In this document: positions 469 to 36,718 of the stretch, piece by piece
Layout: the number at the start of each line of letters is the position of its first letter
Numbering within the stretch: the first letter of the stretch is position 1
From: a virus
DNA length: 37,132 nt
Direction: 5' to 3' (one strand)
IMG/VR virus record: IMGVR_UViG_3300046692_000313
Coordinates: 1 to 37,132 of that record
Translations under genes and position numbers: made by a program
The notes under the pieces: generated by a model
Told to the model about the DNA's origin: nothing
Databases searched by the model: none
The model's input: the letters and a program-made list of their open reading frames with translations, nothing else

Positions 469-812
469 GCCGGCCACCCTGCATCGATATCCACCGCCTC
501 GATCGCGGCCAGCGTATCCGCCGCCTCCGTCATCGCGCGCAACGCGGAGGCATGGGCAACAAGGTCGCTGATCGGCGCCGCGCCGAAGGCCGCCAGCGCG
601 TCCCGCTTCACCCTGATTGCGATCCATGCTTTCGCTCGCGCGGCCGGAAGATCATCGACGATCGTCAGGCTGTCCCAATCCACCATCTTGCCAGCCCATG
701 TGAAGGCGCCAGCAACGGACAGAGTCGTGCAACCGGCAATGTCACAGGCCGGCAGCATTTCCGGCGTCACGATCTGGGCTTCCCGCTTTGCCGGGTCCAT
801 GATGACGATCAT
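465..812 (-). CDS. Small tail-region protein, possibly fibre accessory
   Basis: The protein has 115 aa. An upstream in-frame start exists inside the fibre gene, but the ATG at 812 has a good GGAAGGGG ribosome site overlapping the fibre stop (817-819), so it is preferred. Residues 1-60 are beta-like. The C-terminal half is alanine-rich and helical (ARAKAWIAIRVKRDALAAFG). That half resembles the helical segment of the small DUF4376-type proteins often found directly after phage fibre genes, but the match is by eye and weak. It overlaps the start of the lipoprotein gene by four bases, so the two are translationally coupled. Confidence 0.65.
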   Translation of the reverse strand: MIVIMDPAKREAQIVTPEMLPACDIAGCTTLSVAGAFTWAGKMVDWDSLTIVDDLPAARAKAWIAIRVKRDALAAFGAAPISDLVAHASALRAMTEAADTLAAIEAVDIDAGWPA

Positions 813-816
813 CCGC

Positions 817-3800
817 TTACCCCTTCCATGAGAGCGCGAAGGTGCCACCGAACGATATGAAATCATTCGTATTGGTCTTGCGCATGATGATCCGCACGGA
901 CACCGTCTGCCGAGCACCGAGGCCAATCGACGAGCCAGAGACGGAGAAAGATCCGGCAAAGTCGCCGCCCGCGCCGCCAATATCCGGCGTCACGGCGAAG
1001 GCGCTGCCGATCGTCGTCCACGATCCGCCGCCATTCAGGCTATATTGGAAATAAGCTTCGACAGAGATCGTGCCGCCCGAACCCAGCTTAAAGAAGCTGC
1101 CATTGGCGTCGGCTTCCAGCGTTCCGTTCGGCCCCATCAACAGGTCGATACGGCTCACTTCCGCCAGCGTCGTCGTGGTCGGCGCGCCCACGCCATTGTC
1201 CGCGAACACATAAGGCGCGCCATCCGGCACCTTGGTATAAGGCACGCGCACCTTCGTGCTCGATCCGCCCTGGCTCGCGGTCACTTCCACCCAGCCTTCG
1301 TTCGCAGACATGCCGCTGGCCGACACCGCGCCGCCGCCGGTGATGGACACACCGGTCATACCGCTCGACGACAGGCCATAGGTGGCGCTGCCGGTCACAT
1401 CGGTCGCGCCGCGCAGCACCGTCACCTGAAAACCGGGAATCGCGCCCTTGGGGGTGTAGTTCGCGGATGACGGGACGGCGATCGGATTGGGAACGGCAGT
1501 GATCGTCAGCGCGTCCAGGCCGTCCGTGCCATCGGTGCCGTTCGTCCCATCGCTGCCAGCGCTCCCGACAGGTGAAAACTTGATGCCGGAAATGCGCGCG
1601 CCAGATGCCCATATCGAGCTATCGAAATAGTAGCGCTGGCTGCCGGGCGCCGAAACCTGCCGCCGAATTTCTCCGCTGCGGTAATAGGTCACTGTCCGGT
1701 TGTCATATACGACCTGAAGGACATGACCCGGATTATAGTCGCCAAGAGCAATCAGGCTGCCACTTTCTGCAGCAAATAGCCCGCCGCCACCTTGAAGATA
1801 CAGACCATAATCGATCGTGGCCCAATCAGCATCTGTCGTCGGATCGGTGTTGAGACCAAAAATGTAATCATCACCGCCATTCGCCGTGACGGCAGCCATC
1901 GCCCCGCCAATATAGCCTTCCGACGAATAGGCGGAACCATCCCAGAAGCCGCTAGCGCCCGTCTTCAGGATATAGTCCTGACCCACGACGACATTGGCGT
2001 GCGGCACCAGGCCGAACAGCGCAGGCCCACGATAGGGCGACCATGTGTAATCTGCCGGGTTCGTGCTTTCGATCGCCGACGTCTTGTTGACCGCCAGTCC
2101 CTGATAGCCACGTCCACCGGGCGCGCCGGTGGCAAAGTTTACCGTGCCGTCCGCGCTGTCGGCATAGGCGACCCAGCTATAAAGCGTCAGGCCGTCTGCC
2201 CCGGGTGCGCCAGGTGCACCATCCTGTCCATCGGACGGCCCCGGCGCGAAGCTGGGAAAGCCGGATTGGATCTCCGTCGCCGAAGACACCATCGGCTCTG
2301 CGATGATCGCAGTCATGTGCCCGGCCGCGTTGGCCCTGACATAGAGCACCAGATGCATCGCGACCGCCGTAGACGGCGTTTCAACAAAGACCTGAAGCTT
2401 CGTATTAAACGGCTGCGCGCCCGATACCCCCGCGACATAGACAGCAGAGACACTCCCTGCAGCATCGACATAATGGGCATGCACATGCTGAATATCGATC
2501 GGACCTTGCCCCTCGATCCCCAACTGCACGGCCAGACGCTCGCCACCCTTGACCGGTATCGTGTAATCCGAGTGCGTCCGCAGTTCGAACTGAGCGCCTG
2601 CCGCGCCGGCATCATATTCGGCCTTTACATAGCGCACGCCCTGGTGAAGCCCGGCGAAGAAGCTTGTCAGCGTGAGCGGGCCGGTATTGATGCCGGTGGT
2701 CCACCCCTGCACGCCCCGCTCGAACATCGCATTGCGCACGCGGTTGCTACCGCTGATGCTGTCACTCCCTGCGCGAACGAAAAGGCTCCACCAGTCATTG
2801 CTTTCTACCGGCAGCGAAGGCGGCGCATTACCCGTGCTCGCCAGTGCCGCGACATAGACCCATGAAGAGCCCTCATACTGGACGATATCGCCCGCGCCAT
2901 AGTTCGTCGCCGGGTCATATGGCCCCCGCGGCACCAGAACGACCGGGGCGCTCGGCAGCGGCGCGGCCTTACTCAGGCCTTCCACCGTCAGCGACAGCTT
3001 GCTGACGGTCTCTCCCACCTCAATGGAGAAGTCCTTGAAGAACCCATAGATGGTCAGGCTGTCGGTCCCGGCCTCACCGATCCACAAGGACGGGCGCGTG
3101 CGAACCGCCGTGATGCGGCTCACCGCATCGTCCAGAGCAGCGGTGCGGATCAGCGAGCGCGTCGACATCCGCTTCGCCCATGCGCGCTCGACGACCGTCA
3201 CTTCGCCAAAATCGTCCGTTTCCTTGCGGCTATAATCGGTGATCCCGGCCGTAGGCGATGCCTCGGTTACGCCCAGCGCCACCAGCGGCCCGGCAAGCAA
3301 GGTGCCGACAGACACCGTACCCGCTCCGGTGACCGTCACGAGGATAGCGCTGGTGCCGGCGGGCAGGTCCAGAAAGGTGACTGCGCCCTCCCCGACCGCA
3401 ATGGTGCGATCATATCCGGCCGCCTCCACCCGCACCGTCGCCGCCACCACGTCCAACAGCGCCACGGCTGACACCGCATCGACATCGAGCGAGACGATGA
3501 TGGAACCTGCAGCAGACGTTACCGTACCCAGCGCCTGATCGAACATCGCCCAACGGTTGGTCGGGCCGACATCCAGCCACTTGCCCGAACTCCCCGCCGG
3601 ATCAGCCCCGACATTGCCTGCTGCCGTGCTCTCATAGATCCGGTGCGTCGCCGCCTTGATGACCCGAGCGCCCATCGGATAGACTGTCCCCGCCGACCAT
3701 TCCGCATGATCAGCCTCGGCAACACTGCTGGACGTCAGCACCGCGTCCGTGATCGTCTCAGGCTGCAGCAGCCAAAGCGTGGACAACTGCCCCTCTGGCG

Positions 3801-14842: not shown

Positions 14843-15517
14843 TCAGGCGCCTATCAGCTTCAGCCGGCGGGCGCGGTGCTGCGCGGCGATGGAGCGGCGA
14901 TCGGCGGCATGAAGACGCTGGGTCGCTTCGCGCCGCTCTTTCTGACCCGCGACCAGGGCGGAACGCATGCCGACCGTGGCGTCAGGATAGGCAGGGTATG
15001 TGACCGGCGACACGTCATAGAGGCGTTCCAACTTCAGGATCGTGCGCAGCCATGTGCCGTCCGGCATTTCCTCCCAATGGTCGCCATTCTCGCGAGCGAC
15101 GCGGAACGCGAAGCTGGACTGGGACAGGTCGCCGCGCGCGACCATCGTCGCGACATTTTCGGCATAGTCGGTATCAGGCAGATCAACTTCGTAGATCAGG
15201 CCTGTGTCGTCCTGCTCGATCCGGCATGTGCCCGACAGGGTACGCCCCAGCAGCATGTTCGGATCATGGTTGAACAGCGCGCGGCAATCATCGCCCAACA
15301 CGGCGTCAAACGCTCTGGGTGCGATCGTTTCGGCGAAGCCGAACATCATTTCCGAACGGACGTTGAACTTCGCGGCATAGCCGCGCAACACCGCGACCGT
15401 CTGCGCGTCGGCCGGCGCGGCCTCGCCTTCGGCCAGCGCCGATCCATCGGCGGCGCGGATCATGCGGCGCAGCTCCATGCGCCCGACTTCGAACGGATTG
15501 GCACAATCGAAGATCAT
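14843..15517 (-). CDS. Prohead maturation protease (HK97 family, U35)
   Basis: The protein has 224 aa, ATG overlapping the portal stop (15514-15517). It shows the HK97 protease pattern: LRGYAAKFNVRSE, then ALFNHDPNMLLGRTLSGT with the catalytic His of the NHD motif near residue 83, and LSQSSFAFRV with the catalytic Ser. VYDVSPVTYPAYPDA-like sequence (LYDVSPVTYPAYPDATV) follows. The basic tail (REATQRLHAADRRSIAAQHRARRLK) probably binds the capsid assembly domain. It cuts the capsid delta domain and itself during head maturation. Order portal-protease-capsid is standard. Confidence 0.95.
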   Translation of the reverse strand: MIFDCANPFEVGRMELRRMIRAADGSALAEGEAAPADAQTVAVLRGYAAKFNVRSEMMFGFAETIAPRAFDAVLGDDCRALFNHDPNMLLGRTLSGTCRIEQDDTGLIYEVDLPDTDYAENVATMVARGDLSQSSFAFRVARENGDHWEEMPDGTWLRTILKLERLYDVSPVTYPAYPDATVGMRSALVAGQKERREATQRLHAADRRSIAAQHRARRLKLIGA

Positions 15518-16779
15518 GCGGGTTGCTCCTGTGCTGGGGTGCCGATCGGCACGAAATTCATGGGCCTGATACGTTCGTCGCCACCGGCGCCTTCGACCGG
15601 GTTTCGGTCCAGCAATTCCAGTCCATCGTTGACCGAATAAAGCCCAGCCTCCCGACCGATTTTAATGGCTTCCATCTGTGTCTTGATGTCACCGCGCAGA
15701 AGCGCTTTCAGGTTATGCTTCGCCTCATAGCCCTGATCGCGCTGGCGTTCCGTCAGCAGCTTGGCATTGGCTTCCTGTTCGATCTGCACGAAATGCGGCA
15801 TCATGCAGTCGTTCACGCTCTCGATGCTCTGATGCTCGATATTGGAGAAGGTGGCCTTGTCCAGATCGCCGATCTTGTGCGGCGGCACGCCATAGATGCG
15901 GGCGATTTCAGACACGCTGAATTTGCGCGTCTCGACATATTGCGCATCTTCCATCGGCATCGTGAACGGGTTGAACTTCATCCCTTCTTCAAGGATCGCG
16001 ACCTTGCCCGCATTCGCCTTTCCGGCATAAGTCGCCGTCCAGCTTGACCGCAGCCGTTCGGCCGCCTCGCTGGAAACTTTAGCGGGATGCTCCAATGCGC
16101 CGGCAAGCCGGGTGCCGTTGCGATAGAACTGCTCGCCATAGGCGAGGGCTTCCATCGCCATGCCGACCGTCATGCGATGCTGCCGGATCGGGGACAGGCC
16201 CCGAACGCCGTCGAAGCCCGGCGCCATCAGGTGGAACACATCGTCATTGGCAAGGGTGATCCCCCGGACACGAAAGGTCTTCACCCCGTTTTCAAGACGA
16301 GGGTCAACCTCCCATGCCGGGATCGGATAGAGGCCAAGTGGTTCGCCGGTACGAACGTCACGCTGAATTTCCGCATAGGCGTTGCCCCATAGGAGCATCT
16401 GCGCGATCATCGTCATGCGGAAAATGAACGGCGTCTGATAGCTGTTGGGCTTGGTATTCAACAGCTTTGCCAGGGCCATATCATTGGCGACGCGCGTCTT
16501 TCCGTCCGATTTCTGGATCAGGTGGAGCGGTATCCACCCGCCTGTCTTCGCGATGTAGAAAACGCAGGCATAGACCGCAGATACAGCGAGCGAAGATGGC
16601 GGCGTGACGACGGTTCCCGATGCCTCGCCAAGCCCCAGTGCCGCCAGCGCGGCAGGATCGGAAAGCGAGATATTGGGATTTTCAAGCGATGATCTGGCTT
16701 CGCTGTCGGCCATCGGACCATCGGCAAGCGCGATCGGCGCAGCCCCAGTCCAGCGGATTTCGAAGCCCAGGATGTTCAT
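15514..16779 (-). CDS. Portal protein, HK97 family
   Basis: The protein has 421 aa and ATG overlapping the large terminase stop (ATGA at 16779). Conserved segments are SAVYACVFYIAKTGGWIPLHL, QTPFIFRMTMIAQMLLWGNAYAEIQRD, the DVFHLMAPGFDGVRGLSPI stretch, and KFSVSEIARIYGVPPHKIGDLDKATFSNIEHQ, all diagnostic of the HK97-type portal. It forms the dodecamer at one capsid vertex through which the terminase pumps DNA and to which the connector attaches. The C-terminus is rather long in charged helix as usual. No anomaly seen. Confidence 0.96.
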   Translation of the reverse strand: MNILGFEIRWTGAAPIALADGPMADSEARSSLENPNISLSDPAALAALGLGEASGTVVTPPSSLAVSAVYACVFYIAKTGGWIPLHLIQKSDGKTRVANDMALAKLLNTKPNSYQTPFIFRMTMIAQMLLWGNAYAEIQRDVRTGEPLGLYPIPAWEVDPRLENGVKTFRVRGITLANDDVFHLMAPGFDGVRGLSPIRQHRMTVGMAMEALAYGEQFYRNGTRLAGALEHPAKVSSEAAERLRSSWTATYAGKANAGKVAILEEGMKFNPFTMPMEDAQYVETRKFSVSEIARIYGVPPHKIGDLDKATFSNIEHQSIESVNDCMMPHFVQIEQEANAKLLTERQRDQGYEAKHNLKALLRGDIKTQMEAIKIGREAGLYSVNDGLELLDRNPVEGAGGDERIRPMNFVPIGTPAQEQPA

Positions 16780-18671
16780 GCGATAATGACCCCACGACTC
16801 TCATAGACGGAAGGTGCTGTGCCGGTTTGCAGCACTAACGGCGCAATCGCATTGATCATGGCGTCAACCCCGTCGATCTTGTTCGGGCTGTCCGCCGTTT
16901 CCTTCTTCGGGATCAGCGTCCCGTTCACATGCCGCGTCACGACAGCGTTCGACACCATCCACGTCATGACGGGGTTGCCGTCATGGCCTATCATATGCGG
17001 CCCGGCCCTTACCCTGGCTTCCAGATCCTTTGCCGGATCCGTGACATTCGGCGCGCTCTTGTGAAGCTGCACCGCCAGATCGTCGCCTCCGTTGGCCAGA
17101 TCGGCGTTTAGCCGGGAAGCCATCTGCTGCGCGGCGGCGAACTGGTCGAATGTCACCTTCCGCACGGACTGGGTTGCGATCAGCCAGCGGATGAACATTT
17201 CCACCGAATTGTGATCTACGAAGTCACCGGGCGTCACCAGCAGATCAGGCAGCCATGCCGCCGGCAGCTCCGCCAGCGGTTTCGCCCAATCGGGGTCGCC
17301 ATTATCCTTCAGCGCGAACAATGGGGGCAGACCGGCGAGGCCATCTTCATCAAGTGGTGGCCCGCCGTTATGGCCCGCCCAGGTGCCATAGGTGGATTGG
17401 CCGGTATCGCTTTGCGTCTCTCGCATCAGCGCTGCCGCCGGGATGAAGAATTTCGGTTTTATCAGTAGCTTGTCGCCATCGGCCGAACCGATCAGCGCAA
17501 CGGCTGTGATATCGTCCTTGTCCGCGAGGTCAGCGCCGACCGTACATTCAAGCCCATGGAAATCGGCCCACCCCAGCCCTTCCATGGTTGCCTTCTTCCA
17601 CGCTTCCACGGACAGCCAGGCCGACGCCGCGTTCAGCCAGACATTGAGGCGCTTCGTCTTGAACTCGCCCAGCGAGGCAGGACTGGCCGCGGCTTCGATC
17701 GCATAGCCGCGCAGCTCGTCCAAATCGACCGCCGACCCAAGCAGCGGATTCGCTTTGCCCCAGACCCGTTCGTCAAAGACATCGTCGCCTTCGTCCACCG
17801 TGAAGACGATGCCGAAATAATGATCCGCAGCGACTGTCCCCGCGAGAATTTTCGCAACGAGCGTCCGCTGTTCATAGCAGACGCCGCGCACATTATAGCC
17901 GGCCGTCGTGATCATCCACATAAGCGGCTGCTTGCGCGCACCGAATGCGGATCGGATCACGTCGAAAAGACCGCGATCCTTATGGGCATGCAATTCGTCC
18001 AGAATGCCCACATAGGGGTTCCAGCCATCCTGCGTTGACGACTTGGCGTTGATCGGCTGAACAGCGCCGCCATTGTCGCCGCAAGTGATCGACCGTGCCC
18101 AGGCCTTCAGCGCGAAGGCTTCACGAAGGGCTGCGGTCCTGTCCACCATCAGCTTGGCCGGCTTGAACACCTTGTCGGCCTGTGCGCCCGTAGTCGCGCC
18201 GACAACGATGTCCGGCCCCATTTCGCCTTCGCATGTCAGGCAATACAGGGCGATACCGGCCGTCAGCGTGGACTTGGCGTTCTTGCGCGCAACCTCGATA
18301 TAGGCCCGCGTAAAGCGCCGACGATCATCAGCCCGACGGCGAAACCCGAAGACGTTCACCAGAATGAATATCTGTGCGGGTTCCAGTACCAGCGTTGCGC
18401 TGTCCCATGATCCCTGAACGTGCGGCAACTTCTCTATGAAGTCGCAGATGTCTTCGGCATGCCACTCGCTGAAATAGAACGGACAGGCTTTGCGTTTGGC
18501 CCGTTTCAGATCGTCAAGGAAGCGCTTCGCTGCCTGCCGGACGAACACGCATTGCCGCTCGCCCTTGCGATCCGCAACCGCATCCAGCGCATAGTCAACG
18601 GCGATCTGCGCGAAGAAGCTAAGGGGCGCGGCGGCCGTTGCGCGCAAACGGGTTTTCGGTTTGCGCGCCAC
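16776..18671 (-). CDS. terL: Terminase large subunit (HK97 type) with GHNGGPPLDE insertion
   Basis: The protein has 631 aa. GTG at 18671 is preceded by GGAAAGG. The ATPase domain carries the Walker A-like VARKNAKST (127-135) and Walker B with catalytic Glu, VGILDELH (221-228). The RuvC-like nuclease domain begins with CTVGADLADKDD (Asp381) and ends around NKIDGVDAM (Asp603). Between these lies an extra stretch (about 420-470) with GHNGGPPLDEDG at 433-444. That decapeptide is a recurrent short motif in alphaproteobacterial and phage proteins but is not part of the usual nuclease fold. The enzyme powers packaging and cuts concatemers. It overlaps the small subunit gene by 53 bases and is coupled to the portal. 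Confidence 0.95.
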   Translation of the reverse strand: MARKPKTRLRATAAAPLSFFAQIAVDYALDAVADRKGERQCVFVRQAAKRFLDDLKRAKRKACPFYFSEWHAEDICDFIEKLPHVQGSWDSATLVLEPAQIFILVNVFGFRRRADDRRRFTRAYIEVARKNAKSTLTAGIALYCLTCEGEMGPDIVVGATTGAQADKVFKPAKLMVDRTAALREAFALKAWARSITCGDNGGAVQPINAKSSTQDGWNPYVGILDELHAHKDRGLFDVIRSAFGARKQPLMWMITTAGYNVRGVCYEQRTLVAKILAGTVAADHYFGIVFTVDEGDDVFDERVWGKANPLLGSAVDLDELRGYAIEAAASPASLGEFKTKRLNVWLNAASAWLSVEAWKKATMEGLGWADFHGLECTVGADLADKDDITAVALIGSADGDKLLIKPKFFIPAAALMRETQSDTGQSTYGTWAGHNGGPPLDEDGLAGLPPLFALKDNGDPDWAKPLAELPAAWLPDLLVTPGDFVDHNSVEMFIRWLIATQSVRKVTFDQFAAAQQMASRLNADLANGGDDLAVQLHKSAPNVTDPAKDLEARVRAGPHMIGHDGNPVMTWMVSNAVVTRHVNGTLIPKKETADSPNKIDGVDAMINAIAPLVLQTGTAPSVYESRGVIIA

Positions 18672-19032
18672 CGGGAGCCTTTCCTATCCGGGTGCGCGGC
18701 CCTGCGATGCCCAACAGTTCGCGCATGCGGCGCAACTCTGTCAGATAGGCAGCGGGCGGCGGCTCATTGGAAAGAAAGGCCGCGCGCACCATCGCCTCGG
18801 TTGCGCAATATGTGGCGAACAGCGAGCTATCGCGCTCCGTCACACCGGCCAGCATCACCCGCGATATTTCCTCGATCCACACTTCCTGCGCCGCCGGCAT
18901 CAGGTAGTCTGGTGCTACCGGCGGATCGCCAGGCGAAAACACTTCGACCGCTTTGCCGGCATCGCGATCAGGGCGAAGCGTCCCGCGCTTTTCCTTTGTC
19001 GCTGGAAGCTGGGGTTTAGGCCCGCGCTTCAT
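18619..19032 (-). CDS. terS: Terminase small subunit (P27 family)
   Basis: The protein has 137 aa from the ATG at 19032. MKRGPKPQLPATKEKRGTLRPDRD is the typical basic opening of P27-type small terminases. PDYLMPAAQEVWIEEISRVMLAGVTERDSSLFATYCATEA and the C-terminal LRELLGIAGPRTRIG motif complete the match. It recognises the packaging start in concatemeric DNA and recruits TerL, whose gene overlaps its 3' end. The gene starts inside the last codons of the 61-aa gene upstream, so all are coupled. Confidence 0.92.
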   Translation of the reverse strand: MKRGPKPQLPATKEKRGTLRPDRDAGKAVEVFSPGDPPVAPDYLMPAAQEVWIEEISRVMLAGVTERDSSLFATYCATEAMVRAAFLSNEPPPAAYLTELRRMRELLGIAGPRTRIGKAPGGAQTENPFARNGRRAP

Positions 19033-19201
19033 TCTCAATATCCACTCGCATCGGCACCGGACTGACGAAGCCAGCCAGCGACAAGATCTTGCACGCCAAC
19101 TTCAGGCGGAACGAAAAACGGCGAACCCCGGTCAGTCTAACCAAGATCGTCAGGGACTTCCTGGCAGCGTCTGCGACATCAACGGTATGACAGGCCCGCA
19201 T
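19016..19201 (-). CDS. Small basic amphipathic protein before the terminase
   Basis: The protein has 61 aa. The ATG at 19201 has a strong TAGGGGGT site; a longer in-frame start at 19384 would run back into the HNH gene and is rejected. The sequence (LTILVRLTGVRRFSFRLKLACKILSLAGFV) is basic and amphipathic and ends in an acidic tail (MRVDIENEARA). Small proteins with an LTG-R-F-R-L pattern are seen near terminase or tail genes of sphingomonad phages in my recollection, without known function. It overlaps the small terminase start by 17 bases. Confidence 0.65.
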   Translation of the reverse strand: MRACHTVDVADAARKSLTILVRLTGVRRFSFRLKLACKILSLAGFVSPVPMRVDIENEARA

Positions 19202-25558: not shown

Positions 25559-26392
25559 ATGAAAACCACTCAAGAATTACTGCAAGAACGGGTCGCCGAA
25601 CGCCTGGAGGCACTCAAACTAACCGAGCGCGCCGTCTCCATAGCCGTTACGGGCAAACCTGACCTCATCCGCTTCATTCGCACTCGCGGAACCGTACCAT
25701 CCGCCGACAAGATCATCACCCTTGCGGCAATCCTGGAATGCTCCGCAGCTTGGTTGATGGGAAAAACAAACGATCCAACGCCAGACGATGCGATGATGCC
25801 GCTGATAGAAGCAATGCGCGGAACCGTACCCTCGCGCGAACGCCCCAAGTTGGTTATGAATATTGAAGAATCTTACAGTCAGTTAAAAAAAGACAGTAGC
25901 CTCCCAGAACTATCCGATATTTCAATACGACCAAGCGTTCTCAATTATACAAAAGATGTCCCAGTCCATGCAGCATCCATAGGGAAACCATTCAAAGCTG
26001 ACGTAGAAGAAAATTTTGCCGATATGCTGACATTTGTTCTGTATAATGACAAACCAATAGAACACTTTTGGCGTCCATTTGGTCTAACCAGTAAGAAAAA
26101 AGCATATTCATTCTACATGCCTGACGGCAGCATGGAACCCGCATTCGAGCCGGGCGCCCCCATACTGGTGGATCCGATCCGCACCCCTACAACACTTGAC
26201 TACGCATTGGTATATCTCGACGACACAAATGATGTGGACGGCTCCACGGTGATATTCGGACGCCTCATTAGACGTGCCTCCGATCGAGTCACCCTTCACC
26301 AGTTTCATCCAGATGCGCAGAGCGAGATTCCCATGCTAAACATTCGCGCCATTCACCGCGTTTTGAGTATCGCGGAAATAATTGGGATATAG
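25559..26392 (+). CDS. Phage repressor, XRE plus S24-like domain, catalytic Lys missing
   Basis: The protein has 277 aa. N-terminal helix-turn-helix about residues 8-70 (ERLEALKLTERAVSIAVTGKPDLIRFIRTRG, then KIITLAAILECSAAWLMG). The C-terminal S24/LexA-like domain (about 133-277) has the Ser motif MPDGSMEP with Ser191. At the place where family members usually have Lys (VKRL) this one reads VIFGRL, Gly234, and no Ala-Gly cleavage pair is seen in the hinge (HAASIG at 137-142). Self-cleavage is thus doubtful. No ribosome site precedes the ATG, which abuts an operator; the message may be leaderless like lambda cI. The middle (25860-26110) is AT-rich relative to the rest, a sign of module exchange. 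Confidence 0.92.
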   Translation: MKTTQELLQERVAERLEALKLTERAVSIAVTGKPDLIRFIRTRGTVPSADKIITLAAILECSAAWLMGKTNDPTPDDAMMPLIEAMRGTVPSRERPKLVMNIEESYSQLKKDSSLPELSDISIRPSVLNYTKDVPVHAASIGKPFKADVEENFADMLTFVLYNDKPIEHFWRPFGLTSKKKAYSFYMPDGSMEPAFEPGAPILVDPIRTPTTLDYALVYLDDTNDVDGSTVIFGRLIRRASDRVTLHQFHPDAQSEIPMLNIRAIHRVLSIAEIIGI

Positions 26393-29337: not shown

Positions 29338-29640
29338 ATGGCCGCCGACGTCGCCGGATATGGCAATGGCCCTGAAAGCGGCCCACGGCAGTCCGGGCTT
29401 GAGGATGCGCTCATGAACGCGCCCGCGCTGGCTGGCAGGCGACGCCGCGCGAAAGCGGTCTATCCGGGCAAGGTCGCAATTCGCCATGCCCGGGAGGCGG
29501 CGGAATCGATGGGGATTGATCCAGGCGGCCTTGAGATACGCCCTGATGGCACGATACGCATCTTCGATCGCGCAGCGATTTCCACGGCCTCACCGAAGGA
29601 TGAGTTTGAAGAATGGCTACAGGCCGGAAAACTGGGGTAG
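29338..29640 (+). CDS. Small protein coupled to integrase, candidate excision factor
   Basis: The protein has 100 aa from ATG 29338, right behind AGGGGAAG; a longer frame from 29263 overlaps the previous gene and is rejected. AVYPGKVAIRHAREAAESMGIDPGGLEIRPDGTIRIFD is a short basic alpha/beta module that I recognise as a frequent companion just before tyrosine integrases in alphaproteobacterial prophages. Its stop lies 28 bases inside the integrase gene. A role as recombination directionality factor is possible from this position, but no classical excisionase helix-turn-helix is evident. Confidence 0.75.
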   Translation: MAADVAGYGNGPESGPRQSGLEDALMNAPALAGRRRRAKAVYPGKVAIRHAREAAESMGIDPGGLEIRPDGTIRIFDRAAISTASPKDEFEEWLQAGKLG

Positions 29641-30731
29641 AGGGCGTCCACATCGTCACGGCCCGCAAGCTGGGCAAGCCGGTGCGCCATTACATCTACG
29701 CGTGGCGCGGCGGCCCCTGCATCAGGACCGTCGTGGGCGGTGAAAAGCCCACCATCACCCAGGATGACGTAAAGGCGATTGCCGCCGCCCTGGAGGCCGC
29801 GAAGCCAGTACTGAAGGACACCATCGCAGGACTGGCCACCGCCTATCGCTCAAGCCCAGAATGGAAGGCGCTCGAGGCGTCCACCCGCGACACATGGGGG
29901 CGAGCGCTCGACAAGATCGAGGCGCGGTGGCCGAACGTTCCTTTGCGGCTGTTCTGCGATCCCCGCATGGTCACACAGGTCGTCAAATGGCGCGACGAAA
30001 TGGCAGAGACCCCACGCGCTGCAGACATCGCCATCGCCCAGCTTTCCCGCCTGCTGGAATTCGGCCGGCTGCGAGGCAAGGTGACCGTGAATATCGCGGC
30101 CGGCATCCCGACCCTTTATCGCAACGCCCAGCGCGCTGAAATCATCTGGACCGACGAAGACATGAAGGTCTGGAATACGCATGAGGACGTTTACCAGTCC
30201 CTGCGTGATGTCGTTGCCCTGGCGGCCGAGACCGGCCTGCGCCGCGCCGACCTGATCGGCCTGACGTGGGACGAGATTGGAGAGGTGGCCATCACGCGGA
30301 TCGCCAGGAAGAAGAGCCGGGGTAAGCGCCGACGGGTCGTCATGCCGATCGTGCCGGGGCTCGCGAAGGTGCTGGATGATTTGAGGAAACGCCCCCGGCA
30401 CGACGGGATCAACACCGTGCTTGTCACCAGCCACGGTACGAGCTGGTCAGGCAATGGCCTGTCAGGCAGTTTCGGAAAGGCGGTGCGCGCCGCGGACATC
30501 CATCATGTCGATTCTGACGGCGAAAAGAAATTCAAGCACCTTCACGACATCCGCGGCACCTATGCAACCAAGCTGATGACGGCGCCGGGGCTCAATTTGA
30601 CCGACAAGGAAATTGCGCAGTTGATGGGCTGGACGCCGGAACAGGTGTCAGAGATCCGCGCACACTATGTGGACGATGCTGCTGTCGTAATCGCGCTGGG
30701 ACGTAGGATCGCCAAAGTCACGAATCGTTAG
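29613..30731 (+). CDS. int: Tyrosine-type phage integrase
   Basis: The protein has 372 aa. Arm/core-binding domain about 60-170, catalytic domain about 175-372. Catalytic residues: Arg210 in TGLRRADLIGL, Lys region around ARKKSRGKRR (231-240), His311-x-x-Arg314 in HLHDIRGTYATKL, Trp340 at the second His/Trp position (LMGWTPEQV) and the nucleophile Tyr352 in AHYVD. All are present, so the enzyme should be active. It is the last gene of the rightward block and converges with the Fic gene, overlapping its stop by 14 bases. The likely attP is about 1.2 kb downstream. Confidence 0.95.
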   Translation: MATGRKTGVEGVHIVTARKLGKPVRHYIYAWRGGPCIRTVVGGEKPTITQDDVKAIAAALEAAKPVLKDTIAGLATAYRSSPEWKALEASTRDTWGRALDKIEARWPNVPLRLFCDPRMVTQVVKWRDEMAETPRAADIAIAQLSRLLEFGRLRGKVTVNIAAGIPTLYRNAQRAEIIWTDEDMKVWNTHEDVYQSLRDVVALAAETGLRRADLIGLTWDEIGEVAITRIARKKSRGKRRRVVMPIVPGLAKVLDDLRKRPRHDGINTVLVTSHGTSWSGNGLSGSFGKAVRAADIHHVDSDGEKKFKHLHDIRGTYATKLMTAPGLNLTDKEIAQLMGWTPEQVSEIRAHYVDDAAVVIALGRRIAKVTNR

Positions 30732-35315: not shown

Positions 35316-36641
35316 TCAGCCCGTCACCCGGCGAGCACCCCATGAGGTGAAACGCAGATCGAGCGCCACCGGGACATTCTGTATGAACTTGATGATCAGG
35401 TTGGTGCCCAGGCTTCCACTGGTGACAACCGCTCGCGAAGGCGTCCTCAGCCCCATCTCCAGTGCAGCGGCAGGAAAGGCCGGGGAGACAAGCGTGGTCG
35501 GCCCCCCGTCAATCAGAGCCCATGCGCTGCCGGGGTCAAGCAACACGATGCCAAGCGTCGCGACACCGGTCTGTCCGGCAGCAAGGCTGTAGCGGCACAT
35601 TGCTTCCACCACGTCACCTGCGGCCACCGTGCCGGAAGAGTGCCGAATGCTCAGCTGCGGATCAGCCGCAGTCGGCGTACCGCTCACCTGTACGCGCTGG
35701 CAAACTTTGCCATCGGGCATGGTGCCCTTCGAAAGGGCAACAGTCAGGCCCGTACCGTTACTAAGCGTCGCGACGTGATTGTCAGCCAGCGTCCCCATGC
35801 CGCCGGCATTGCCTGCTGTGCCAGCGCACATCGGGTTGTTATCAAATATGCCGCCAGGGTTGCCGGCCGAATACACGTCGACATTCGAAGACGGCAGGTA
35901 GCTCACGGGGGGATGCCAAGCCTCGATAATGGGCTGGATCATCTTCGCAATCAGATAAGCACCAAGGCCAGACTGATGGACTCCGTCCTTGCTGCGGCCA
36001 TCATCGATGACATCGATCAAAGCTGTGGAGGTCGGATCGAGTACCCATGTTGGCCAGGGATCGACCACGGCGGAATTGCGAACAAAAGACTGCGCCAGCA
36101 GCCAGTTATGGACAGCGATGTGATCGAGCAGGACCTGTCCACTCAGTCGAGAGTCCTGAAATGTTTGGTTGCGCTCGTTCCCCAGTGGTAGCTCAGCCAC
36201 CCAGATGATCCGCTTTCCGGCTAAGTGGACCGCATTCCGGAACGCCGTCATCGCGGCAATCGAGCGGGCGGCGGTGAACGGAGTCGGCTGCGTGCGGTCG
36301 TTGCGCGAGCATAGGTAAATGACCGTTGAAGCCTTGCTTGCCAACACCTGGGGCAGATGCACGTTGTTGACCGCCTCGGTCGTATAGCCACCCGTCGCGA
36401 AATTGTTCGTCGTCGGAAAATAGAAGCGCTGCATCGTGAGCCCGCGCAGGAAGTGCGCGATGCCGTCGCCGCGATAACCGAAGGTCGTTCCGCCGGCCGG
36501 GCCGGTATTCTGCTCGATGCGACTGTCGCCCGCAAAGCAGATCTCCGGCAGTGTGGAAGGGATACCCCGATCGGCGAACAGCTCATCGATGTCCTCACCA
36601 ACATCATCGCTGCGCACCGTCACATAAGTCTTCTGCGCCAT
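35316..36641 (-). CDS. SGNH/GDSL-type esterase, tail-associated
   Basis: The protein has 441 aa from ATG 36641 (GGGAGTGAAG in front); a longer start at 36692 would translate the terminator and is rejected. SGNH signatures: CFAGDSRIEQ (GDS with Ser40), Asn in CSRND (112-115), and the catalytic pair in KDGVHQSGLGAYLIA (Asp219, His222). The C-terminal 200 residues are beta-rich, fibre-like (VDVYSAGNPGG ... LRFTSWGARRV). Such enzymes on phage tails remove acetyl groups from capsule, exopolysaccharide or O-antigen. The gene is flanked on both sides by near-identical terminators, like a cassette. Confidence 0.88.
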   Translation of the reverse strand: MAQKTYVTVRSDDVGEDIDELFADRGIPSTLPEICFAGDSRIEQNTGPAGGTTFGYRGDGIAHFLRGLTMQRFYFPTTNNFATGGYTTEAVNNVHLPQVLASKASTVIYLCSRNDRTQPTPFTAARSIAAMTAFRNAVHLAGKRIIWVAELPLGNERNQTFQDSRLSGQVLLDHIAVHNWLLAQSFVRNSAVVDPWPTWVLDPTSTALIDVIDDGRSKDGVHQSGLGAYLIAKMIQPIIEAWHPPVSYLPSSNVDVYSAGNPGGIFDNNPMCAGTAGNAGGMGTLADNHVATLSNGTGLTVALSKGTMPDGKVCQRVQVSGTPTAADPQLSIRHSSGTVAAGDVVEAMCRYSLAAGQTGVATLGIVLLDPGSAWALIDGGPTTLVSPAFPAAALEMGLRTPSRAVVTSGSLGTNLIIKFIQNVPVALDLRFTSWGARRVTG

Positions 36642-36657
36642 AATCTTCACTCCCACG

Positions 36658-36677
36658 AAAAAAGGCGCCGAAGCGCC
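36658..36677 (-). terminator. Terminator before the esterase gene
   Basis: On the minus strand GGCGC-TTCG-GCGCC followed by six T. It lies 41 bases after the stop of the membrane coiled-coil gene and 16 bases before the esterase ATG. Stem, loop and spacing are almost the same as at 35270-35292. Confidence 0.9.
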
Positions 36678-36718
36678 CGCCATTGTCACCAATCAAACTT
36701 CACATTCGCGCCAAGCGC

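Follow-up and report, generated by a model that had tools for sequence, protein, structure and literature searches.

We suggest that the heptapeptide GHNGGPP is a short linear docking motif for a putative alphaproteobacterial partner, possibly a case of host mimicry, and hold this reading with somewhat more confidence than doubt. The peptide recurs in unrelated proteins, with the large terminase subunit (TerL) and the portal as its phage target proteins, has been gained independently and is conserved at the peptide level. It is also carried by a family of small host proteins and shows a taxonomic bias towards Alphaproteobacteria.

The motif-bearing insert in the TerL of this phage

The window, which is the whole stretch of 37,132 nt analysed here (record IMGVR_UViG_3300046692_000313), contains a tailed-phage gene set. 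The genes of the small terminase (phrog_83), TerL, portal, S78 prohead protease, a Phage_capsid protein and the tape measure are located on the minus strand, and a repressor-like gene (25559-26392) and an integrase gene (29613-30731) on the plus strand. Judging from the latter two, the phage is probably temperate. A lipase-like gene (phrog_6102, 4.3e-46) lies at the edge of the record, at 35316-36692. Features of the TerL region are collected in Table 1.

Table 1. Features of the TerL region, in positions of the window
Feature	Position	Strand	Basis
terL, large terminase subunit, 631 residues, HK97-like fold	16776-18671	-	Pfam, PDB 6z6d, structure model
Portal protein, without a motif copy in this phage	15514-16779	-	Phage_portal PF04860, 8.8e-102
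Probable small terminase subunit, upstream neighbour of terL	18619-19038	-	phrog_83, 5.3e-08
GHNGGPPLDE motif, TerL residues 433-442	17346-17375	-	sequence
TerL insert of 44 residues, 433-476	17244-17375	-	alignment, 6z6d, model; 10/80 relatives and the window
Predicted beta hairpin, TerL residues 452-465, second half of the insert	17277-17318	-	model

The ATPase and nuclease domains are both present in the window TerL (TerL_ATPase, 7.6e-32; TerL_nuclease, 2.3e-34), and the best TerL_nuclease stretch stops at residue 429. HK97 TerL (6z6d; TerL_ATPase PF03354/TerL_nuclease PF20441) is alike in its whole fold and is the top PDB match both by sequence (9.2e-21) and by structure. However, it lacks the counterpart of residues 433-476 together with the motif: the phmmer alignment to 6z6d_A runs through residues 121-432, continues with 477-609 and skips what is between them. 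The insert starts with the motif and separates the invariant W431 from the core strand LLVTPGD, which begins at residue 477. Across the 53 sequences aligned, W431 and G482 do not vary and T480 hardly does.

An earlier note on this DNA had described the decapeptide as part of an extra loop of about 50 residues. Its coordinates and residue numbering are correct, and we add the strand, which the note had left unstated; the plus strand at the same place translates as FIKWWPAVMA. The extra loop is also there, with a length of 44 residues instead of about 50. Among the TerL relatives aligned (best 80 of 314), the additional ~44 residues are found in 10, with 70-78% identity, and are absent from 70, so the possibility that all homologous TerL proteins share the loop, raised in the same note, does not hold. 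Since 70 of the 80 relatives and 6z6d are devoid of it, the insert with the motif is not part of the normal HK97-like TerL fold.

The strict motif is present in 4 of the 10 insert-bearing relatives; two more (L003 and L004) have GHAAKEGMGGGPPLDD, and the other four have unrelated letters. The motif thus changes within a retained loop, as 6 of the 10 insert carriers are without its strict form. Judging from the alignments, the tag is dispensable, with the insert itself missing in most relatives. Other loops, e.g. GIGCEGGRFPLDHE or GRVPRSE, take the place of the motif in close relatives.

In the AlphaFold2 model of the window TerL (53 sequences, mean pLDDT of 87) the motif segment is a coil with means over ten-residue blocks of 59-73, which is below the core and not clearly disordered. 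The coil is followed by the small confident hairpin (ten-residue blocks at ~91) and then by the core strand. GHNGGPPLDE is a single copy in the whole window, where the coding pattern with at most one mismatch gives 1 match against 0.09 expected.

The same peptide in unrelated proteins

The codon pattern of GHNGGPP is found at no fewer than 120 loci of viral contigs (121 sites among the matches listed) and at no fewer than 119 loci of genome contigs. As the control for the viral collection one permutation was used, namely the reversed peptide, which gives 34 loci in a complete scan. The motif is located in the longest frame at 99 of the 121 sites among the matches listed, compared with 2 of 34 for the control. 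It lies in a TerL or a portal at 93 of the 121, compared with 0 of 34; the former count restates the cluster labels, and the class searches were seeded with motif-bearing proteins in which the motif was masked.

The longer form GHNGGPPLDD[DE], with leucine encoded by CTN, yields 63 loci in a complete viral scan, with 48 in TerL, 10 in portal and 5 in other proteins. Six of the 120 GHNGGPP loci listed reappear in this set, and the overlap suggests a viral total of ~1,260 GHNGGPP loci, roughly 600-3,300. Scan, control and placement together show that this short peptide, with the consensus GHNGGPP[LIM][DE][DE], occurs in unrelated proteins more often than expected by chance. This abundance is the opposite of the absence elsewhere that the earlier note had considered, and the note's statement that the motif is shared by unrelated proteins of alphaproteobacteria and phages agrees with the clusters, the PHROG labels and the genome matches.

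With the motif masked, the ORFs of at least 60 residues (227 of 240) form 74 clusters, and 117 of the 121 listed viral sites are inside ORFs of at least 100 residues. PHROG scans were made with the cluster representatives and with 116 ORFs from the listed 121 viral sites, an ORF with two sites being entered once. Carriers are mostly labelled as TerL, by phrog_2, 9, 38 and 979, or as portal, by phrog_12, 2662, 156, 1216, 12082 and 21. By cluster, the listed viral sites divide into 56 portal, 37 TerL and 28 other or short. Further carriers include PlsY, a DNA polymerase and exonuclease-like proteins; hence, the role of the motif may exceed packaging, and the putative partner may have nothing to do with it.

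Its position differs between proteins, from N-terminal through internal to C-terminal. Some TerLs have it at the N- or C-terminus, and portals often in the C-terminal tail. One portal (L097:5190-5239) has two tandem GHNGGPP copies ten residues apart, and another (L172:1849-4425) combines the motif with an apparent intein, with LAGLIDADG_3 and Intein_splicing matches inside. In bacterial genomes the motif is C-terminal in PlsY, the glycerol-3-phosphate acyltransferase (L277:3651-4340, confirmed; L267 and L294, assigned by clustering).

Gain and loss of the tag

Within the window TerL family the motif occupies three non-homologous loops: at residues 433-439 (window and L002), at ~280-282 (L133 and L222) and at ~481-482 (L123, L092 and L290). 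An unselected set was formed by 80 TerL relatives of L133 (best 80 of 286), chosen without regard to the motif. The motif is present in 50 of the 80, and a quick LG tree, with the motif columns left out, gives at least 15 state changes of the tag.

The portal tails undergo 14 state changes among 78. GHNGGPP is found in 20 of the 80 members of the portal set and near variants such as GHNGGPS in 40, many of the sequences being nearly identical. Taken over 80 loci, 14 are tagged in both proteins, 36 in TerL only, 4 in portal only, and 26 have neither in the strict form, which indicates no exclusion and no clear association (sign test, median p 0.625). A rule of one tag per phage, considered as nearly all motif loci are single-copy, was dropped because of the 14 unselected loci tagged in both TerL and portal.

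Hosts and a small alphaproteobacterial protein

We judged the bacterial class of the genome matches from the genus in their titles: the 80 titled matches (of at least 119) comprise 54 alphaproteobacteria, 3 unresolved Proteobacteria and 23 others. The motif is in a TerL, a portal or a certain small protein in 40 titled cases, 38 from alphaproteobacteria (9 TerL, 4 portal and 25 small protein) and 2 labelled only as Proteobacteria (one TerL and one small protein). None of these three kinds of carriers is found among the 23 matches from other classes. In the class of G001 (Rhizobium metallidurans) 10 of 289 sampled genomes, including the seed, contain the pattern and none contains the reversed control; in the class of G003 (Streptomyces), with 98 genomes, the pattern is in the seed only and the control gives 2. 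The TerL of Moraxella phage Mcat18, a gammaproteobacterial phage, is a relative of the L133 TerL and has no motif. Ochrobactrum phage POA1180 is also without it, so alphaproteobacterial phages are not all tagged, and a search of seven named phage stretches found no GHNGGPP.

This undescribed small protein makes up the largest of the clusters from bacterial genomes, with 38 sequences, most of them roughly 65-130 residues long. GHNGGPPL[ED] is located near its N-terminus, followed by a conserved helical domain. Its consensus (L204:5083-5370 and L670-L681) reads WRxAHRxAWKxPPREIALRRLxRAExLGMTYxEYTLEILERG. A profile search of 142 genomes from the class of G004 (Bradyrhizobium) finds the protein in 13, including the seed; the profile included the motif columns, and GHN[GNML]GP[PTSG] is present in 12 of the 12 N-terminally complete members, the thirteenth being cut by the contig end. 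In the one model made, the motif is in a disordered tail (pLDDT <50) ahead of four helices. The small-protein members scanned have no match in Pfam or NCBIfam, and the fold search with the model gave nothing significant. We rejected a phage origin of the small protein, as the Pfam matches among 37 of the 76 listed neighbouring ORFs are mostly to ordinary metabolism or helix-turn-helix proteins. A DUF2312 protein of a Bradyrhizobium phage (L663:4588-4854) starts with MEATIGHNS, possibly a further GHN variant.

The sister motif GHNNPP[ED]

GHNNPP[ED] has the GHN..PP core in common with GHNGGPP and differs from it in the protein families. It is present at no fewer than 120 loci of viral contigs; of the 120 listed, 100 have it in the longest frame, 1 is a portal and 0 are TerL. 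Its families are virion structural, exonuclease-labelled, NifU-like and integrase proteins, and a scan of 115 genomes from the class of G001 gave no match. Viral NifU/IscU-like Fe-S scaffolds (PF01592) end exactly in GHNNPPE or GHNNPPD (L544:11208-11696, L545, L547, L565, L577, L661 and others), as though a gene of host origin had received a tag. No published account of GHNNPP[ED] was found in the accessible part of the literature.

Alternatives to docking

The peptide might be an inert spacer without any partner, recurring because loops and tails tolerate such a favourable flexible turn. It does occur in loops, tails and linkers, is rich in Gly and Pro, and is replaced by other loops in relatives. 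However, the reversed peptide has the same composition and shows none of this placement (2 of 34 in the longest frame, no TerL or portal). The His-Asn pair, irrelevant for flexibility, is mostly kept. A spacer also does not predict the preference for TerL, portal and a single bacterial class, or the conservation in 12 of 12 disordered host tails. Hence, we consider the spacer unlikely.

A putative enzyme recognition site, acted on at any position by a host protease, by Asn/His modification of GHN or by a similar activity, seems to us rather improbable. Position independence and the presence of the motif in both host and phage proteins would agree with it, as would the host protein, whose 12 complete members all retain GHN but differ at position 4 and at the second Pro. 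It is opposed by the lack of visible cleavage logic in a motif that may be N-terminal, internal or C-terminal, and by the phage TerL relatives, in which His and Asn are themselves sometimes changed (GQNGGPP, GHDGGPP, GHGGGPP).

TerL and portal are known sensor targets of Avs systems, and the structure search with the TerL model lists 8dgc, in which Avs3 is bound to a phage terminase. The loop could thus be an immunity decoy, altering the surface read by a defence sensor. The two main carriers and the patchy gain and loss, which fits an arms race, speak for the decoy. Nevertheless, the peptide recurs at many places rather than diverging and is conserved in a host protein, which makes this explanation very unlikely.

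The copies were also compared at the level of DNA. There are 117 distinct 21-mers among 166 motif sites (from 240 listed, after filtering by ORF length, class and flank redundancy). As the codons vary among copies, selection acts on the peptide. Fourteen genomes have one copy in TerL and another in portal. Within a genome these agree at 4.43 of 7 third positions, compared with 4.33 across genomes, and thus the same-genome copies are no more alike (permutation p 0.38). A DNA-level constraint was initially indicated by codon bias that looked strong against the codon usage of these ORFs (GGC at position 4, z 7.1; GGC/CCG jointly, z 8.6). It was rejected, because most of the bias shrinks in the control for the context of neighbouring residues, in which GGC at position 1 rises. 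What is left, namely GGC at positions 1 (z 6.2) and 4 (z 4.4) and AAT at position 3 (z 3.0), falls short of identity at the DNA level. Ribosome stalling of the EF-P type at Pro-Pro is also out, since relatives often have Ser, Ala, Leu or Thr in place of the second Pro.

Rickettsia palindromic elements are coding, mobile DNA repeats of ~100-150 bases and are similar in making peptide inserts in unrelated alphaproteobacterial proteins. Unlike them, the GHNGGPP copies are unrelated at the DNA level. The mobile coding element proposed in the earlier note is thus extremely improbable: the same peptide at many places of different proteins, the insertion-like gain and the residual codon preference recall one, but synonymous positions vary, copies of one genome are not closer to each other, and the peptide common across clusters is, by eye, only ~7-10 residues long.

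Proposed role of the tag

Short linear motifs are short peptides of loops or disordered tails onto which a partner docks. GHNGGPP is like them in being short, repeatedly gained and position independent; its segment is disordered in the model of the host protein, and in the window TerL is modelled with lower confidence than the core but is not clearly disordered. It differs in occurring both in the packaging motor of a phage and in a protein of the host, and in that its partner is putative here. The location in loops or disorder, the repeated gain and the restriction to one class are as a docking motif predicts. The docking peptide, the other suggestion of the earlier note, fits these observations as well as the peptide-level conservation and the disorder in the host protein, with the partner itself remaining putative. 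Against docking stand the dispensability of the tag, the lack of either exclusion or clear association between the TerL and portal tags, the carriers outside packaging and the codon bias left after the context control.

We suggest the following mechanism. The tag would be displayed on a flexible loop or tail and read as a peptide by the partner protein. In this phage it stands at the root of the insert, which is specific to its clade and belongs to the nuclease half of TerL. Alphaproteobacterial phages have gained it many times, mostly on TerL or portal, at any loop or tail available. The partner is most simply an alphaproteobacterial factor, because the small host protein carries the same core; this factor would be encoded by the host and would read the disordered GHNxGP N-terminal tail of that protein. 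The phage tag would dock the packaging motor onto the same factor, presumably to the benefit of packaging or assembly. We also put forward, tentatively and as possible rather than probable, that the factor normally binds the GHNxGP tail of the small protein and that tailed phages copy the peptide onto TerL, portal and further proteins to recruit or place the motor through this factor, which would make it a lineage-wide host-mimicking address.

Phage or bacterial use of the peptide strings was not found in the mostly open-access literature covered, and topic searches of the same literature for a tag common to a packaging motor and a host protein gave nothing relevant.

If the tag docks on a host factor, packaging would have an unsuspected host dependency, common to unrelated phages of one bacterial class. 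The peptide would then serve as a bait for finding the factor, and the small protein would have a function to be sought. The tag would, moreover, clearly exemplify a host-like peptide motif that phages have evolved over and over again.
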